A DNA stretch of 64,000 bases from Actinomycetota bacterium (GTDB lineage Bacteria > Actinomycetota > Thermoleophilia > Gaiellales > Gaiellaceae), in the NCBI GenBank assembly GCA_005888315.1, contig VAWH01000019.1, positions 1 through 64,000 of the forward strand, given 5' to 3'. Positions 57,866 through 64,000 of this stretch are shown here, piece after piece. Position 1 is the stretch's first letter. Each line of letters starts with the position of its first letter. The notes under the pieces are model-generated. The model did no database searches. It saw only the letters and a list, made by a program, of their open reading frames with translations, and was not told the DNA's origin. The translations under genes were made by a program, and so were the position numbers.

Positions 57866-58213
57866 TCAGTCCACCCAACGACGCGCTCGCACGAAGACGA
57901 GCACGCCGATCAGGACACCCGTCGAGTCGATCGCGACGTCGAGCGGCGACGAGTGCCGGCCGCTGACGAAGTGCTGGTGCACTTCGTCCGTGATCGCGTA
58001 AGCGATCCCGAGCAGGAACGCCGGCAGCTCGCGGCCCATCGCCCGCATCAGCAGCAGCCCGAGGATCGCGTACTCGGTCACGTGCGCGCCCTTGCGGAGG
58101 ATTGTGTCCCAGGTGCCGAGGCCCGTGCCGAGATGGGCGATCGACGAGAGCGCGAAGATCACCGCCGCCCAGGCGACGACCGGCAGCCATGTCGAAAGGC
58201 GCGAGGGTGGCAC
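57866..58213 (-). CDS. VanZ family membrane protein
   Basis: The 115-residue protein has four hydrophobic helices and the VanZ-like motif RKGAHVTEYAILGLLLMRA, with AYAITDEVHQHFVSGRHSSPLDVAIDSTG after it. VanZ-type proteins confer low-level teicoplanin resistance in some hosts, but most have an unknown envelope role. The GTG at 58213 is six bases after TACCAT on the minus strand, back to back with the cobalamin riboswitch promoter. Confidence 0.82.
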   Translation of the reverse strand: MPPSRLSTWLPVVAWAAVIFALSSIAHLGTGLGTWDTILRKGAHVTEYAILGLLLMRAMGRELPAFLLGIAYAITDEVHQHFVSGRHSSPLDVAIDSTGVLIGVLVFVRARRWVD

Positions 58214-58219
58214 GGAAGG

Positions 58220-58229
58220 ATGGTAGTCT
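58220..58229. promoter_or_regulatory. Divergent -10 boxes, VanZ and B12 operon
   Basis: The minus-strand box TACCAT (58225-58220) serves VanZ and the plus-strand box TAGTCT (58224-58229) would start the riboswitch RNA near 58236. The two overlap. The plus-strand box is a weaker call. Confidence 0.4.
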
Positions 58230-58238
58230 CGGCCGAAA

Positions 58239-58380
58239 GGCGAGCGGTAAGGGAACCCGGTGCAAGTCCGGGACGGTCCCGCCGCTGTGAGGGGAGACGC
58301 TCTGTCGCCAAGAGCCACTGGCGCAAGCCGGGAAGGCGGCGGCAAAGGGAGCCCCGAGTCAGAAGACCTGCCGTTTCGCC
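58239..58380 (+). promoter_or_regulatory. Cobalamin riboswitch
   Basis: The core matches the B12 aptamer: GGGAACCCGGTGCAAGTCCGG, then ACGGTCCCGCCGCTGTG, GCCACTGGCGCAAGCCGGGAAGG and the B12 box GAGTCAGAAGACCTGCC (58356-58372). A P1 stem can form between GGCGAGCGG (58239-58247) and CCGTTTCGCC (58371-58380). The downstream CCTC (58392-58395) can pair with GAGG of the ribosome-binding site, so translational control is plausible, which is inference. It precedes the DUF4430/ECF operon. Confidence 0.93.
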
Positions 58381-58410
58381 GGAACCGAACCCCTCGCGGA
58401 AGGAGGATTC

Positions 58411-59028
58411 GTGTACCGACGCTCTTTCGCATTCGTGGCAGCCCTTGCTGCCGTCCTCGTCCTCGTGCCGGCGGCGCTCGCCGCGCGCGTGCACGTTCGC
58501 GTCGAAGGCAAGACGCAGACGATCTTCGGCTCGACCGAGCCGACCCTCAATGTGAAGGCGAACGCGCTCGACGCGCTCGACGCAGCCAGTCTGGCGGGCG
58601 AGTTCTACTACCACGTCGCGCCGACCGCCTTCGGTCCGTACGTCGATCAGATCGGCCGTTACCCGGCCCTACCGGGCTCGCCCAATGGGTGGGTGTTCAA
58701 GGTCAACGGGATCGTGCCGCCGGTCGGCGCCGATCAGGTCACCGTCAAGGACGGCGACACTGTGCTCTGGTACTGGGCGACGTTCACCGGTGCCGCCGGG
58801 CCGCTGACGCTCGAGGTCGAGACGTCGAGCGTCCGCGGCAAGCGCTGCTTCTTCGCGACCGGCCGCAACGACGCCGGCCGTGCCTCGAGGGTGCGCGGCG
58901 TTGTCTTCACCCTGAACAGCCGCCGGGTCGGCTCGAGGAGCGGAGTCCTCTGCACGCGGCTCGGTCGCTACGCGGTCCGGGTCGCCAAGGCCGGCGCGAT
59001 CCGCTCGCGGACGTACAGCGGCCGGTGA
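58411..59028 (+). CDS. Exported DUF4430 protein 1
   Basis: The 205-residue protein has an N-terminal signal peptide (about 1-25) and a DUF4430 domain (about 60-115: FGPYVDQIGRYPALPGSP, NGWVFKVNGIVPPVGADQ, VKDGDTVLWYW). DUF4430 forms the C-terminal half of animal transcobalamin, which closes over B12. A beta-rich C-terminal part follows. The GTG start has AAGGAGG four bases upstream and is the first gene behind the riboswitch. Its stop overlaps the next start (GTGA). Direct B12 binding is predicted, not shown. Confidence 0.82.
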   Translation: MYRRSFAFVAALAAVLVLVPAALAARVHVRVEGKTQTIFGSTEPTLNVKANALDALDAASLAGEFYYHVAPTAFGPYVDQIGRYPALPGSPNGWVFKVNGIVPPVGADQVTVKDGDTVLWYWATFTGAAGPLTLEVETSSVRGKRCFFATGRNDAGRASRVRGVVFTLNSRRVGSRSGVLCTRLGRYAVRVAKAGAIRSRTYSGR

Positions 59029-59708
59029 GACGGCTGGTGGCCGCCGGGCTCGCAGCCGCCGCCCTCGCGGGCTGCGGCTCGAGCCACACCAAAGGGAGCG
59101 CGACGCTCTGGATCACCCGCGACCGCGGGCAGCACGTCATGCTCGTCGCCAGGGTCAAGGCCGGGCAGACGGCAATGCAGGCGCTCCAGCACGCGGCGAC
59201 GGTGAAGACGAGCTACGGCGGCCGCTTCGTGCAGTCGATCGACGGCGTCTCAGGCAACCGGTCGGCGCGCAGAGACTGGTTCTACTTCGTCAACGGCTAC
59301 GAGGCCGACCGGGGCGGCGCTGACTATACGCTCCACCCGGGCGACGTCGAGTGGTGGGACTACCGGCCGTGGAAGCACGCAATCCACGTCCCGGTTGTCG
59401 TCGGCGCGTTTCCGGAGCCGTTCCTCCACGGCTACGCCGGCAAGACTCGCGATGCGGCGATCGTCTTCGAGGCGGAGGCGCTGAGGCCGCAGGCGAGCGC
59501 GCTCGGAAAGCTGATCCACGCGAAGGCGGTGACCGCGGACGAGCTCGGCGACGCGAACGTGCTCTTCCTGACCAAGGCGGACGTGCCGCTGTCCGCGACG
59601 AGCAAGGGAGCCGGGGCGCCGGTGCGGTTCGTGATCGGGCCGACGGCGGCGCGCCGGCTGCTCGCGGATCCGAAGCTCGTTCGCTTTCGCTACTCGGGGC
59701 TGCGGTGA
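59025..59708 (+). CDS. DUF4430 lipoprotein 2
   Basis: The 227-residue product is a lipoprotein (lipobox LAGC, Cys about 17) with a DUF4430 domain (about 45-115: VKAGQTAMQALQHAAT, YGGRFVQSIDGVSGN, WFYFVNGYEADRGGADYTLHPGDVEWWDY). A second region (about 120-227) has no clear family. It overlaps both neighbours by GTGA. It is likely the cell-surface partner of the previous protein. Confidence 0.82.
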   Translation: MRRLVAAGLAAAALAGCGSSHTKGSATLWITRDRGQHVMLVARVKAGQTAMQALQHAATVKTSYGGRFVQSIDGVSGNRSARRDWFYFVNGYEADRGGADYTLHPGDVEWWDYRPWKHAIHVPVVVGAFPEPFLHGYAGKTRDAAIVFEAEALRPQASALGKLIHAKAVTADELGDANVLFLTKADVPLSATSKGAGAPVRFVIGPTAARRLLADPKLVRFRYSGLR

Positions 59709-60403
59709 GGCCGGCTCCGGCAGCAGCGCTTCTGTTCGGGCTGGCGGCGGCTGCGCTGCTGGCCCGGCACACCGTCTCGGTGGCGGCGCTCGCGGCGCTG
59801 CTGCTCCTCGTCTGCCTCCGGGCCCCCGTCTCGCGCCGCTGGCCCTATCTCGTCGGCGCGGTCGGCTCGGCGGCGGCGCTGTTCGTGCTGACGCCGTTCG
59901 TCGAGCGGCTGCCCGGGACGGTGTACTGGAGCGGGCCGTCGATCCCGGTCGTCGGGACGCTGGACGTCACCTCGACCGAGCTCTCCGGCGCGCTCTTCAA
60001 TGCGTGCCGACTCGCCGCGGTTTCGCTCGCTTTCGCCGTGTACGCGCTCTGGCTCGACCACGACCGTCTGGTGCAGGCGGCCGGATTCGCGAGGCGCTCC
60101 GTGCTCGCCGTCGCGCTGGCGACCCGGCTCGTGCCCGCGCTGGAGCGCGACGCGTCCGGGTTGGTCGAGGCCCTGCGCGGCCGCGGGGTCGAGCCGGAGG
60201 GGCTCCGCGGCCGCGCCCGATTACTGTCGCCGCTCCTCGCCGGGTCCCTCGAGCGGAGCCTGAACCTGGCCGAGGCGATGGAGGCGCGCGGTTTTGGCCG
60301 TCCCGGGGCTACGCGGCTACCGCAGCCGCGCTGGGGCGCGCGCGAGCAAGTGGCATTGGCCGGCGCGGTGCTCGCCGTCGTCGTGGGAGCGCTGTGGCTC
60401 TAG
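59705..60403 (+). CDS. ECF transporter transmembrane protein EcfT
   Basis: The 232-residue membrane protein is the T-component that couples ATP hydrolysis to the substrate component. Two Ala-Arg-Gly-type coupling motifs are visible: ALRGRGVEPEG (about 158) and AMEARGFGRPG (about 193). N-terminal hydrophobic helices precede them. It begins in a GTGA overlap and overlaps the ATPase by ten bases. Confidence 0.88.
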   Translation: MRPAPAAALLFGLAAAALLARHTVSVAALAALLLLVCLRAPVSRRWPYLVGAVGSAAALFVLTPFVERLPGTVYWSGPSIPVVGTLDVTSTELSGALFNACRLAAVSLAFAVYALWLDHDRLVQAAGFARRSVLAVALATRLVPALERDASGLVEALRGRGVEPEGLRGRARLLSPLLAGSLERSLNLAEAMEARGFGRPGATRLPQPRWGAREQVALAGAVLAVVVGALWL

Positions 60404-61758
60404 CGCGCACAGAAGGCTTGTCGTATGCGTACCCGGGCTCGGCCGTCCCGGCGCTACGGGACGTGTCTGTGGATCTGGCACCGGGACAGGTCACGTTGGT
60501 ACTGGGCCGTTCCGGGTCCGGCAAGTCGACCCTGCTCCGCGCCTTCGCCGGCCTTGTTCCCCACTTCCACGGCGGTCGCTTCTCCGGCCGCGTCGAGGTC
60601 GCCGGCCTCGACACGCGGCGGCACCACCCGGCGCGGCTCGCCGGCACGGTCGCCACCCTCTTTCAGGATCCCGAGGACCAGGTCGTCTTCACCCGCGTCC
60701 TCAACGAGGTTGCGTTCGGGCTGGAGAATGTCGGCACGCCGCCTCGCCAGATCGAGGGGCGGGCGCTCGAGGCCCTGCGCTCGGTCGGCGCCGAGCACCT
60801 TGCGGGGCGGCTCGTAACCGAGCTTTCCGGCGGGGAGCTGCAACGGGTTTGCCTGGCCGCCACGCTCGCCCTCGAGCCGCAGCTGCTCCTGCTCGACGAG
60901 CCGACGTCCCAGCTCGACCCCGAGGCAGCGAAAGCGCTGATCGAGCTGGCGCTGCAGCTCGCCCGCGACCGCGGCACGTCGGTTGTGTTGTCCGAGCAGC
61001 GGCCGGTCTTGCCGTTCGAGATCTGTGATCGCGTGCTGTTCCTCGAGGACGGGCGCCTGGCGTTCGATGGCCTGGTCGGCCGGGCTCGAACCTGGCTCGA
61101 ACAGCACCATCCCTTGTTCGTTTCGGACGGTGGGTGGGCCGGTGTACACCGGCCCACCCACGGGCAAGTCACGTGCCGTTTGGACGGTGTTTCGTTTGCG
61201 TACGAAGACAACCTGCTCGTCTTGGACAGCGCCAGCATCGAGCTCCGGCGCGGCGAGATCGTCGCGCTCGTCGGCCCGAACGGCTCTGGTAAGACGACGC
61301 TCGCGAAGCTCGCGGCCGGGCTGCTCGAACCGCTGAGCGGCCGGGTCGAGCGACGCGGTCGCCCCACCTACCTCTCACAGGATCCGGGCCGCTACGTCCT
61401 CCGCGAGCGCGCTCTCGACGAGGTCGCGGTCGGCGTCGACGGCGATCTCGCGGCCGCGAGTCGCGCGCTAGCCGCAGTCGGTCTCATCGGCTGCGAGGAC
61501 CGGCATCCGCGCGACCTGTCGAGCGGTGAGCGCGAACGCCTCGCGCTGGCGGCCGTGCTCGCGCCCGACCCCGACCTGCTCGTCCTCGACGAGCCGACCC
61601 GCGGCGTCGACCCCGAACGCAAGCTCGAGCTCGCGGCGCTCCTGCGGGCGAACACAACTCGGGCGACGCTGGTCGTCACCCACGACGTCCTGTTCGCGAA
61701 GACGGTTGCCGACCGCATCGTCTCGCTGGCGCCCGACCGGGAGCTCGCGAATGTCTAG
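60394..61758 (+). CDS. ECF transporter ATPase, two fused ABC domains
   Basis: The 454-residue protein joins two ABC ATPases. Domain 1 (about 1-235) has [22 protein letters not shown] and LLLLDEPTSQLDPE, but the switch His is replaced (VVLSEQRP). Domain 2 (about 250-454) has GPNGSGKTT, SSGERERLALAA, LLVLDEPTRGVDPE and a normal switch His (VVTHDVLF). The fused A-A' arrangement is common in actinobacterial ECF importers. It provides the energy for the T and S components. Confidence 0.92.
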   Translation: MALARTEGLSYAYPGSAVPALRDVSVDLAPGQVTLVLGRSGSGKSTLLRAFAGLVPHFHGGRFSGRVEVAGLDTRRHHPARLAGTVATLFQDPEDQVVFTRVLNEVAFGLENVGTPPRQIEGRALEALRSVGAEHLAGRLVTELSGGELQRVCLAATLALEPQLLLLDEPTSQLDPEAAKALIELALQLARDRGTSVVLSEQRPVLPFEICDRVLFLEDGRLAFDGLVGRARTWLEQHHPLFVSDGGWAGVHRPTHGQVTCRLDGVSFAYEDNLLVLDSASIELRRGEIVALVGPNGSGKTTLAKLAAGLLEPLSGRVERRGRPTYLSQDPGRYVLRERALDEVAVGVDGDLAAASRALAAVGLIGCEDRHPRDLSSGERERLALAAVLAPDPDLLVLDEPTRGVDPERKLELAALLRANTTRATLVVTHDVLFAKTVADRIVSLAPDRELANV

Positions 61759-62425
61759 GACGGTGATCGGCGGCGCGGCTGCCGCTGCCTTCGCGGCCGC
61801 CGCGTGGGCGGCGACGACGCCGCGGCAGGCCGCGCTCGCGCTCCTCCTGCTCGCGGCCGCGCTGCTCGTCGCCGGCGCCGCGTGGCTCGAGCCGGGCCTC
61901 GGCGCGAGCAAGACGCTCGCGCTCGTCGCCACGCTCGCCGCGGCGGCAGCCGGCGGACGCGTCCTCTTCGCGGCGATCCCCGGCGTGCAGCCTGTGACGG
62001 TGATCGCGGTCGCTGCCGGCGCGGCGCTCGGCGCGCGCGCGGGCTTCGGAGTCGGCGCCCTAGCGGCGCTCGCGTCGAATTTCTTCCTCGGCCAGGGTCC
62101 GTGGACACCGTGGCAGATGTTGGCGTGGGGTGGGTGCGGGGTCGTCGGCGCCCTCGCAGCGCCGCTCGTCCGCAGGCGAATCCCGTTCGCACTCCTGTGC
62201 TTCGTGCTCGGCTTCGCCTTCAGCGGCCTGATGGACGTCTGGGAGTGGTACAGCTTCTACCCGCACACGTGGGCGGCCCTCACCGTCCAGCTCGGCCGGG
62301 GCTTCTGGTTCGACGCCGCACACGCGCTCGGCAACGTTGTCATCGCCCTCGTTGCGGGCCCGGAGCTGAGACGGCTGCTCGAGCGCTACGGGCGGCGCCT
62401 CCGCACGGAGGTCGTCTGGGCGTGA
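61751..62425 (+). CDS. ECF transporter S component, predicted cobalamin
   Basis: The 224-residue membrane protein has about six helices rich in Ala and Gly in the N-terminal part, matching ECF substrate components. Motifs include VTVIAVAAGAALGARAGFGVGALAALASNFFLGQGPWTPWQM and AFSGLMDVWEWYSF. The substrate is inferred from the upstream cobalamin riboswitch and the DUF4430 neighbours, as in CbrT; it could also take up a corrinoid precursor. It overlaps the ATPase stop by eight bases. Confidence 0.8.
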   Translation: MSRTVIGGAAAAAFAAAAWAATTPRQAALALLLLAAALLVAGAAWLEPGLGASKTLALVATLAAAAAGGRVLFAAIPGVQPVTVIAVAAGAALGARAGFGVGALAALASNFFLGQGPWTPWQMLAWGGCGVVGALAAPLVRRRIPFALLCFVLGFAFSGLMDVWEWYSFYPHTWAALTVQLGRGFWFDAAHALGNVVIALVAGPELRRLLERYGRRLRTEVVWA

Positions 62426-63237
62426 GGCTGGCGGCCCTCGTCGCAGCTGCAGCCGTCGCCGCCTCGCCGGGGGCGAGCGGAGTCGGCTTCCTACAGTCAC
62501 GGCAGGCCGAAAACGGCGGCTTCGCGGAGGCCGGGCAACCGGCCTATCCGCAGCTGACCGCCTGGGCCGTCCTCGGCGTTCGCGCGGCCGGAGCGACGCC
62601 GAGCGACGCCGCGGCCCGCTACCTCGTCCAGCACGAGTCTGAGTTGAAGAGCACCACGGACCTCGCCCTCGTCGTGCTCGCCGAAAACGCCCTGGGGCAA
62701 AGAGCCGACCGCCCGCTGGCTCGTCTCCGCGTGTTCGAACAGCCGAACGGCTCGGTCGGCGGCCTCGTCAACGGCACCGCCTGGAGCGTGCTCGCCTTTC
62801 GAGCGACGGGTACGCCCATCCGCCGCCGGACGATTCGGTGGCTGCTGGCGCGCCAGAGTCGCGCAGGGGGCTGGGGCTGGACAGCGCGCGCCGCCGACTC
62901 GAACGACACTGCCGCCGTCGTCGAGGCCCTTCGCGCCACAGGCGTCGGCGGCCGCCCGATCCGGCGTGCGCTGCGGTTCCTGCTCGGCTTCCGCAACCGC
63001 GACGGCGGCTTCGAGCTGACTCAGGGCCGCGGCTCGGACGCGCAGTCGACGGCCTGGGTTGCCCAGGCCTTCCTCGCGGCAGGCAAGCCCCCGCCGCGCG
63101 GCGCGCTCGCCTACCTGCGGCGCCTGCAGCGCGCCGACGGCAGCTTCCGGTACTCGAGGCGCTACTCGGCAACTCCCGTGTGGGTGACCGCGCAAGTGCT
63201 CCCGGCGCTGGCGCGAAAGCCGTTCCCGCTTCGCTAG
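62422..63237 (+). CDS. Exported alpha/alpha-toroid protein with prenyltransferase/squalene-type repeats
   Basis: The 271-residue product has an N-terminal hydrophobic signal (about 1-20) and five helical repeats with the QxxxGGF core: SRQAENGGF (about 28), EQPNGSVGG, QSRAGGWGW, RNRDGGFEL and QRADGSFRY. This is the alpha/alpha barrel of prenyltransferases, squalene cyclases and the N-terminal half of transcobalamin. No catalytic Asp motif of a cyclase is evident. It is the last gene of the B12 operon and overlaps the S-component gene as GTGA, which argues for a B12-capture role rather than terpene chemistry. Confidence 0.82.
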   Translation: MRLAALVAAAAVAASPGASGVGFLQSRQAENGGFAEAGQPAYPQLTAWAVLGVRAAGATPSDAAARYLVQHESELKSTTDLALVVLAENALGQRADRPLARLRVFEQPNGSVGGLVNGTAWSVLAFRATGTPIRRRTIRWLLARQSRAGGWGWTARAADSNDTAAVVEALRATGVGGRPIRRALRFLLGFRNRDGGFELTQGRGSDAQSTAWVAQAFLAAGKPPPRGALAYLRRLQRADGSFRYSRRYSATPVWVTAQVLPALARKPFPLR

Positions 63238-64000
63238 ACGTCGCGCGCGAACCACTGCCGGCGCCAGAGTCGCCTGTAGCCGAGCGACCGGTTGAGCTCG
63301 AGCATGGCGATGTTGTCCTCGTCGCTCGCAGTCAGGATCTCGCGAATGCCGTGCTCCGCAGCCCAGTTGATCGTGTGCAGCTTCGCCAGTCGAGCGAGGC
63401 CCTGACCGCGGAACCGCGGCACGGTCGCGGTCCACTCGTTTTCGGCCTGGCGCCGCTCGGCGTCGACGAGCAACCACGAGAGCGAGACCGGCCGCCGGTC
63501 ACCGTCGAGAATCGTGAACGAGCCGCTTCGCTCGAGGAGCGGGTTCTCGAACATCGCCTGGCGCCATTCCTCGAGGGTCGGCGCCGGCCCCGCCGGCACG
63601 AAGGCGCCTGCCTCGGCCCAGAGCCCGTAGAGGTCGCGCTCGCGACCGGCGAGTCCGTCCAGGCTCGCGACTTCGAAGCCGTCCCGCTGCGGGAGCTCGA
63701 GACGGTCGGGGGCGAGGCTGCAGACGATGTCGGCCTCGGTCGCTTGGTAGCCGCGAGCGATCGCAAACGCTGCGCCTTCCGAGTCGTTCTCGACGACCGT
63801 CCCGAGCCGCCTCGCGCCGGCCTCGATCGCGTGGCGCTCGACACGCTCAGCGAGCTCCGTGCCGAGGCCGCGACCGCGATGCCCCGGCCGCACCGCCACC
63901 CACGCCCGCGCTTCGTCCGTCGACCCACCTTCCCATTTGAGGTACGCGCTTCCGTAGCCGACGACCGCGCCGCCGTCGAGGGCGATCAGCGAGAGACGGC
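63234..64000 (-). CDS. Tandem-domain GNAT acetyltransferase, N-terminus outside the window
   Basis: The open frame runs off the right edge; 255 residues are visible. Two GNAT-like copies are present: the first has VRPGHRGRGLGTELAERV, the second PRFRGQGLARLAKLHTINWA and EDNIAMLELNRSLGYRRLW near the C-terminus. The layout resembles the GNAT protein at 4244-5194. Substrate unknown. Its stop shares CTAG with the B12 operon's last gene. Confidence 0.82.
   Translation of the reverse strand, partial: RLSLIALDGGAVVGYGSAYLKWEGGSTDEARAWVAVRPGHRGRGLGTELAERVERHAIEAGARRLGTVVENDSEGAAFAIARGYQATEADIVCSLAPDRLELPQRDGFEVASLDGLAGRERDLYGLWAEAGAFVPAGPAPTLEEWRQAMFENPLLERSGSFTILDGDRRPVSLSWLLVDAERRQAENEWTATVPRFRGQGLARLAKLHTINWAAEHGIREILTASDEDNIAMLELNRSLGYRRLWRRQWFARDV

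Follow-up and report, generated by a model that had tools for sequence, protein, structure and literature searches.

A riboswitch-led ECF importer operon of an actinobacterium with transcobalamin-like proteins as candidate corrinoid capture factors

Why should an importer of the energy-coupling factor (ECF) type be encoded together with extracellular proteins that recall the vitamin B12 carriers of animals? The S components of ECF transporters are generally regarded as working without a capture protein outside the cell. The question is raised by an operon in a 64,000-nucleotide stretch of DNA (positions 1 to 64,000 of contig VAWH01000019.1, assembly GCA_005888315.1; called the window below) from a soil actinobacterium of the family Gaiellaceae. 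A cobalamin riboswitch precedes, in order, the genes for two exported DUF4430 proteins (D1 and D2), EcfT, a fused EcfA-EcfA' ATPase (EcfA-A'), an S component and an exported alpha/alpha toroid (Table 1). We interpret this operon as encoding a corrinoid importer with transcobalamin-like capture proteins, and we put the probability of this reading at roughly 65%. It is based on the gene content, on an S component homologous to CbrT and a D1 protein homologous to the beta domain of transcobalamin, on the linkage and fusions of the genes in other genomes, and on the setting in a B12-using genome that has neither BtuC nor corrin-ring methylases.

The RF00174 match of the riboswitch (E 2.8e-23; gathering score 31.5) was the sole Rfam match across the whole window, and it ends 21 bases before D1 on the same strand. 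The successive junctions from D1 to the toroid gene overlap by 4, 4, 10, 8 and 4 bases. All of the parts named in a first-pass annotation of this DNA were recovered by the Rfam, Pfam and profile searches, and its description of every junction as overlapping by 4-10 bases agrees with the coordinates. Its start at 58239 cut off the 5' end of the riboswitch, the match of which begins at 58204. The gene order riboswitch-D1-D2-T-A-S-toroid (T, A and S standing for EcfT, EcfA-A' and the S component) is repeated in essentially all intact related loci and is therefore not a product of chance.

Table 1. Features of the riboswitch-led operon in the window.
Feature	Coordinates	Strand	Evidence
Cobalamin riboswitch (RF00174)	58204-58389	+	Rfam 98.2 bits, full model 1-189
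D1, secreted DUF4430 protein, 205 aa	58411-59028	+	PF14478 46.5 bits
D2, DUF4430 lipoprotein, 227 aa	59025-59708	+	PF14478 51.7 bits; lipobox LAGC
EcfT, transmembrane coupling protein, 232 aa	59705-60403	+	PF02361 CbiQ 44.5 bits (cut-off 25)
EcfA-A', fused EcfA-EcfA' ATPase, 454 aa	60394-61758	+	two ABC_tran stretches, 180 bits
S component, CbrT homologue, 224 aa	61751-62425	+	family profile vs 6fnp_A
Toroid, exported alpha6/alpha6, 271 aa	62422-63237	+	SQHop_cyclase_C 36 bits (cut-off 26.1)

The substrate of the importer is indicated by its S component. Taken alone, the S component of the window gave only a weak DUF6580 match, whereas a profile of its family (36 sequences) matched chain 6fnp_A, which is CbrT, with an E-value of 4.9e-27 when searched against the Protein Data Bank (PDB), aligning profile positions 25-195 to residues 5-176 of the chain; the next PDB match had an E-value of 0.027. 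The ECF_trnsprt model matched 33 of the 36 relatives. EcfA-A' scored under the cut-offs of both TIGR04520 and TIGR04521. CbrT is the experimentally proven S component for cobalamin and cobinamide in ECF-CbrT (PMC5997447). The operon almost certainly encodes an importer of cobalamin or another corrinoid, and ATP-dependent uptake of cobalamin by its ECF transporter is predicted. The proposal of a CbrT-like importer, made earlier from the letters alone, is thus borne out by the profile match together with the genome context.

In the host genome, which is 94.8% complete, a PF00590 (TP-methylase) search returned a single match, which reads as RsmI; the corrin-ring methyltransferases were not found in this search and, since RsmI is the only TP-methylase of the genome, we regard them as absent. 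BtuC was not found in the genome either, its single FecCD match reading as a ZnuB-like permease, and a B12-binding subunit of methylmalonyl-CoA mutase appears to be encoded. Judged by its genes, the host would use B12, would be unable to build the corrin ring and would have no BtuCDF, so that the operon is its evident route to B12. The operon would in this way show how B12-dependent soil actinobacteria without corrinoid synthesis obtain corrinoids. The same relation was seen across 120 Thermoleophilia genomes, with at least five TP-methylases per genome taken as a proxy for corrin synthesis: 6 of the 65 genomes with a toroid reached this number, as compared with 24 of the 55 without one (Fisher p 1.6e-5, a value not corrected for ancestry). 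Five members of one genus of the host's family (G009, G033, G051, G063 and G075) lack both toroid and DUF4430 and have one strong B12 riboswitch each, which may control a replacement importer. The host genome contains one more cobalamin riboswitch match, a weak one of 34.9 bits (G000:C49:6284-6422; L181); the adjoining frames, by eye DJ-1/PfpI-like and NUDIX-like, are not known B12 genes.

The DUF4430 proteins provide the link to the animal carriers. D1 and D2 both exceed the PF14478 cut-off of 23.8 bits, with the domain located at residues 52-123 of D1, where a C-terminal region follows, and at residues 47-113 of D2. The beta domains of human and rat transcobalamin (TC) pass the same model, at 29.2 and 31.3 bits. 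When a profile of the D1 family was compared with the human/rat TC beta domains, hhalign gave an E-value of 9.8e-6 (probability 82.5%, 25% identity, 69 columns), and the two have the pattern F-x-Y...G-P-Y...G...W in common. Among 177,635 PDB sequences, the best match of the D1 profile was transcobalamin-2, at a weak E-value of 0.29; single-sequence PDB searches with D1 or D2 gave no match. By profile comparison, then, D1 is homologous to the transcobalamin beta domain, in line with the earlier designation of DUF4430 as a domain of this type. D2 matched the D1 profile (E 3.9e-12), and it is tied to TC beta via Pfam DUF4430 only. DUF4430 is placed among transcobalamin-type domains by its Pfam membership and in PMC4350170. 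The DUF4430 model also matched the Lactococcus lactis and Methanosarcina acetivorans controls, and searches of plasmids yielded one weak DUF4430 match (Burkholderia) and otherwise nothing.

Features of the N-termini point to export of these proteins. The lipobox cysteine of D2 is residue 17, a position occupied by cysteine in at least 90% of its relatives, and a lipobox was found in 43 of 50 D2 relatives. D1 and the toroid begin with signal-like hydrophobic stretches. An AlphaFold2 model of the toroid (pLDDT 95.1, pTM 0.91) has an N-terminal helix followed by twelve helices in six hairpins, an alpha6/alpha6 arrangement.

The association of the toroid with DUF4430 and with B12 control extends well beyond the window. 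Of the 120 Thermoleophilia genomes, 58 have both toroid and DUF4430, 4 have DUF4430 only, 7 have the toroid only and 51 have neither. Across these genomes, 44 of 80 toroid matches share a contig with a DUF4430 match and lie within 8 kb of it; short contigs account for many of the others. A search for toroid relatives gave 80, nearly all from Thermoleophilia-type actinobacteria according to the record labels. Three of the records (L032, L034 and L074) are labelled Bifidobacterium breve and carry a Thermoleophilia-type operon, so their label is probably wrong. In 42 of the 68 loci in which both could be read, the S component and the toroid form one polypeptide; these fusions are clustered in a single order and do not count as independent of one another. 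In 41 of the 42 fusions, a hydrophobic segment lies between the two parts. As S components usually end with a cytoplasmic C-terminus, this segment would place the fused toroid outside the membrane.

The toroid and D1 also travel together without the ECF genes. At locus L115, one riboswitch leads D2-T-A-S and a second leads a D1-toroid pair, and such pairs with a riboswitch of their own were found at five further loci (L116, L117, L121, L123 and L126). Locus L125 encodes D1 and toroid in one protein, composed of DUF4430, a carboxypeptidase-regulatory-like domain and the toroid; a riboswitch stands before this gene and an S component follows it. Other Actinomycetota families outside Thermoleophilia keep D2-T-A-S-toroid, and one 7 Mb actinobacterial genome (L171) has T-A-S-toroid-D1, near which a B12 riboswitch lies on the opposite strand. 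The co-occurrence, the fusions and the riboswitch-led pairs tie DUF4430 and the toroid to one another and to control by B12, and in Thermoleophilia the usual partner of the toroid appears to be D1. The neighbourhood survey accordingly upholds the toroid-DUF4430-ECF link that the first-pass annotation had put forward. Its further statement that the proteins are separate holds for the genes of the window, but not for most relatives, in which toroid and S component share one chain, nor for L125.

We propose the following course of uptake. The riboswitch would repress the operon when adenosylcobalamin is plentiful. An extracellular DUF4430 protein, either D1 first or the membrane-anchored D2, would take cobalamin onto its beta domain, and the toroid would close over the other face of the vitamin, much like the alpha domain of transcobalamin and intrinsic factor, with the halves associating around the ligand. 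Because the toroid gene lies beside that of the CbrT-like S component and is fused to it in most relatives, the loaded clamp would sit at the mouth of this component. The S component would then receive the vitamin, and EcfT with the pair of ATPase domains would reset it. In transcobalamins, cobalamin binds the beta domain first and the alpha domain, the selective half, then closes (PMC11107200). Isolated human TC beta binds cobalamin, and the separated alpha and beta domains assemble only with cobalamin (PMC5599065); a clamp of two chains is thus mechanically possible. That the toroid and the DUF4430 proteins are extracellular capture or hand-off factors of the importer is probable. By analogy with the animal carriers, they could form a true two-sided, transcobalamin-like clamp, a step to which we give even odds. 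More tentatively, and with the odds somewhat against it, bacteria may hold a two-piece, ligand-closed B12 clamp with its alpha half built onto the S component, so that capture and passage take place in one machine, and the animal carriers may be one branch of a pre-animal DUF4430-toroid system.

Several observations weigh against a transcobalamin-like capture system. The solved folds closest to the toroid of the window are class II terpene cyclases, namely squalene-hopene cyclase and drimenyl diphosphate synthase (Z 27; for 1sqc, Z 27.0 and rmsd 2.6 over 249 residues), and Foldseek agrees on these; no transcobalamin-family chain was among the 50 matches listed. Any kinship of the toroid with TC alpha would rest on the modelled fold and not on sequence homology. 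The L125 fusion runs from beta to alpha, the opposite of transcobalamin. D2 compared with the TC beta profile gave an E-value of 0.2, which is level with that of an S-component negative control (0.22), and we have dropped a direct relation between the two. Several Actinomycetota genomes outside the class have D2 but no D1 beside the toroid, so D1 is not required everywhere.

The L125 protein bears on the first of these points. It was modelled with pLDDT 92.6 and pTM 0.79 from an alignment with a real depth of 14 DUF4430 rows and 12 toroid rows, to which 22 end-trimmed copies of the query were added. Terpene cyclases again lead for its toroid (Z 27), and intrinsic factor comes close behind, with Z 23.0 over 244 residues; with an order-dependent structure aligner, chains built beta-alpha and alpha-beta cannot be matched in one alignment. 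The toroid is therefore best described as having a modelled fold that could serve as a B12 alpha domain, though not demonstrably nearest to one. Toroid relatives at L131, L132 and L127 stand away from DUF4430 and ECF genes and carry an extra C-terminal domain; they possibly represent the same fold with a different function.

These observations raise the alternative that the ECF transporter imports B12 and DUF4430 alone captures it, the toroid being a structural lid, a receptor or an anchor for the S component and making no contact with the ligand. The binding of cobalamin by isolated TC beta (PMC5599065), the toroid-less D2-T-A-S unit under one riboswitch at L115 and the absence of transcobalamins from the nearest folds of the toroid all speak for it, but riboswitch-led D1-toroid pairs without ECF genes and the L125 fusion would be odd for a mere prop of the S component, and we consider the alternative unlikely. 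The toroid could instead be an enzyme in the B12 regulon, a class II terpene cyclase-like or other alpha/alpha catalyst with corrinoids or some substrate at the surface as its target. Its best folds and a DxDD-like motif, canonical in about one-third of the relatives, point in this direction; in the window, however, the motif reads DSND, with Asn in place of the catalytic proton donor Asp, and among 66 rows Asn occupies the general-acid position in 25 and 19 carry Leu, Ser or Met in place of the last Asp. An active terpene cyclase is thus unlikely for the toroid of the window, while in the relatives that keep DxDD catalysis is compatible with the sequence. The location outside the membrane, mostly in fusion with the S component and under a B12 riboswitch, also argues against an enzyme, an explanation that we judge highly improbable. 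The first-pass annotation had itself named a terpene cyclase with an intact active site as the contrary case; the cyclase fold is present, but the intact active site is not.

The remaining alternatives concern the substrate rather than the capture proteins. Import of cobalt, in the manner of CbiMNQO, would be in keeping with the CbiQ family membership of EcfT and with the fact that B12 riboswitches also govern cobalt transporters, for example in C. difficile (PMC11477304). The match of the S component to CbrT argues against it, and the corrin-ring methylases that would use the cobalt are missing from the host genome, for which reason we rejected a possibility that is scarcely credible. That the importer chiefly serves a corrinoid different from cobalamin, for example cobinamide or some other cobamide, with the surface proteins selecting among them, is doubtful. 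Binding of cobinamide besides cobalamin by CbrT (PMC5997447) and the role of the transcobalamin alpha domain as the selective half (PMC11107200) agree with it, but the sequence gives no deciding feature. A corrinoid importer with transcobalamin-like capture proteins remains our preferred reading.

The surroundings of the operon were also inspected. Downstream, a GNAT-type acetyltransferase-like gene (63234-63899, minus strand; family by eye) converges tail to tail on the toroid gene with a 4-base overlap of the ends and so marks the end of the operon. Upstream, a frame for a VanZ-like membrane protein (57866-58195, minus strand; read from the sequence) points away from the riboswitch and apparently starts just before it. 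Within EcfA-A', the linker that joins the two ATPase domains contains, in frame, a perfect 32-base palindrome (GTGGGTGGGCCGGTGTACACCGGCCCACCCAC; 61130-61161). The 22-base core of this palindrome was found at three genomic sites, once exactly and twice with a single mismatch, and is absent from the related loci searched; the palindrome therefore looks like a small repeat element inserted into the gene.

CbrT-type ECF import, DUF4430 as a transcobalamin-type domain and B12 riboswitches are known already. Judged by titles and abstracts, the open-access literature naming DUF4430 (subscription literature being outside the scope) contained nothing on bacterial B12 uptake, and the open-access titles, abstracts and some passages on transcobalamin together with ECF transport or bacterial homologues did not describe the present arrangement. 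In the part of the open-access literature searched, no bacterial counterpart bearing on the origin of the animal B12 carriers was described. If the parts bind B12, a widespread Actinomycetota operon of accessory proteins would be explained, DUF4430 and the SCO2321 family would be given a function and the origin of transcobalamin would become testable.

Among known systems, ECF-CbrT of Lactobacillus delbrueckii (PDB 6FNP) resembles the importer in having an S component homologous over its whole length, EcfT with two ATPase domains and a B12 context. The module of the window differs in being dedicated, with a fused EcfA-A' in the same operon and a riboswitch in front, and in the addition of two DUF4430 proteins and a toroid, which most relatives fuse to the S component. 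The SCO2321 family of membrane proteins (NF053823) is matched, with scores below its curated cut-off, by the toroids of the window (E 7.9e-17) and of L171. Bacteroides feeds an outer-membrane, TonB-type importer by way of BtuG, BtuH and BtuJ. These are likewise surface capture proteins for B12, but their folds are unrelated, that of BtuJ being a beta jelly roll (PMC12751083). The animal carriers transcobalamin, intrinsic factor and haptocorrin share with the proteins of the window a DUF4430-type beta domain, an alpha6/alpha6 toroid as its partner and the extracellular location of both, and intrinsic factor matches the L125 toroid. The animal carriers are single chains with alpha before beta, whereas the window has separate genes for two or three chains, one of them a lipoprotein, and the single chain of L125 has beta first; the toroid of the window is nearer in fold to terpene cyclases, and its proteins would hand their ligand to an ECF importer instead of an endocytic receptor.

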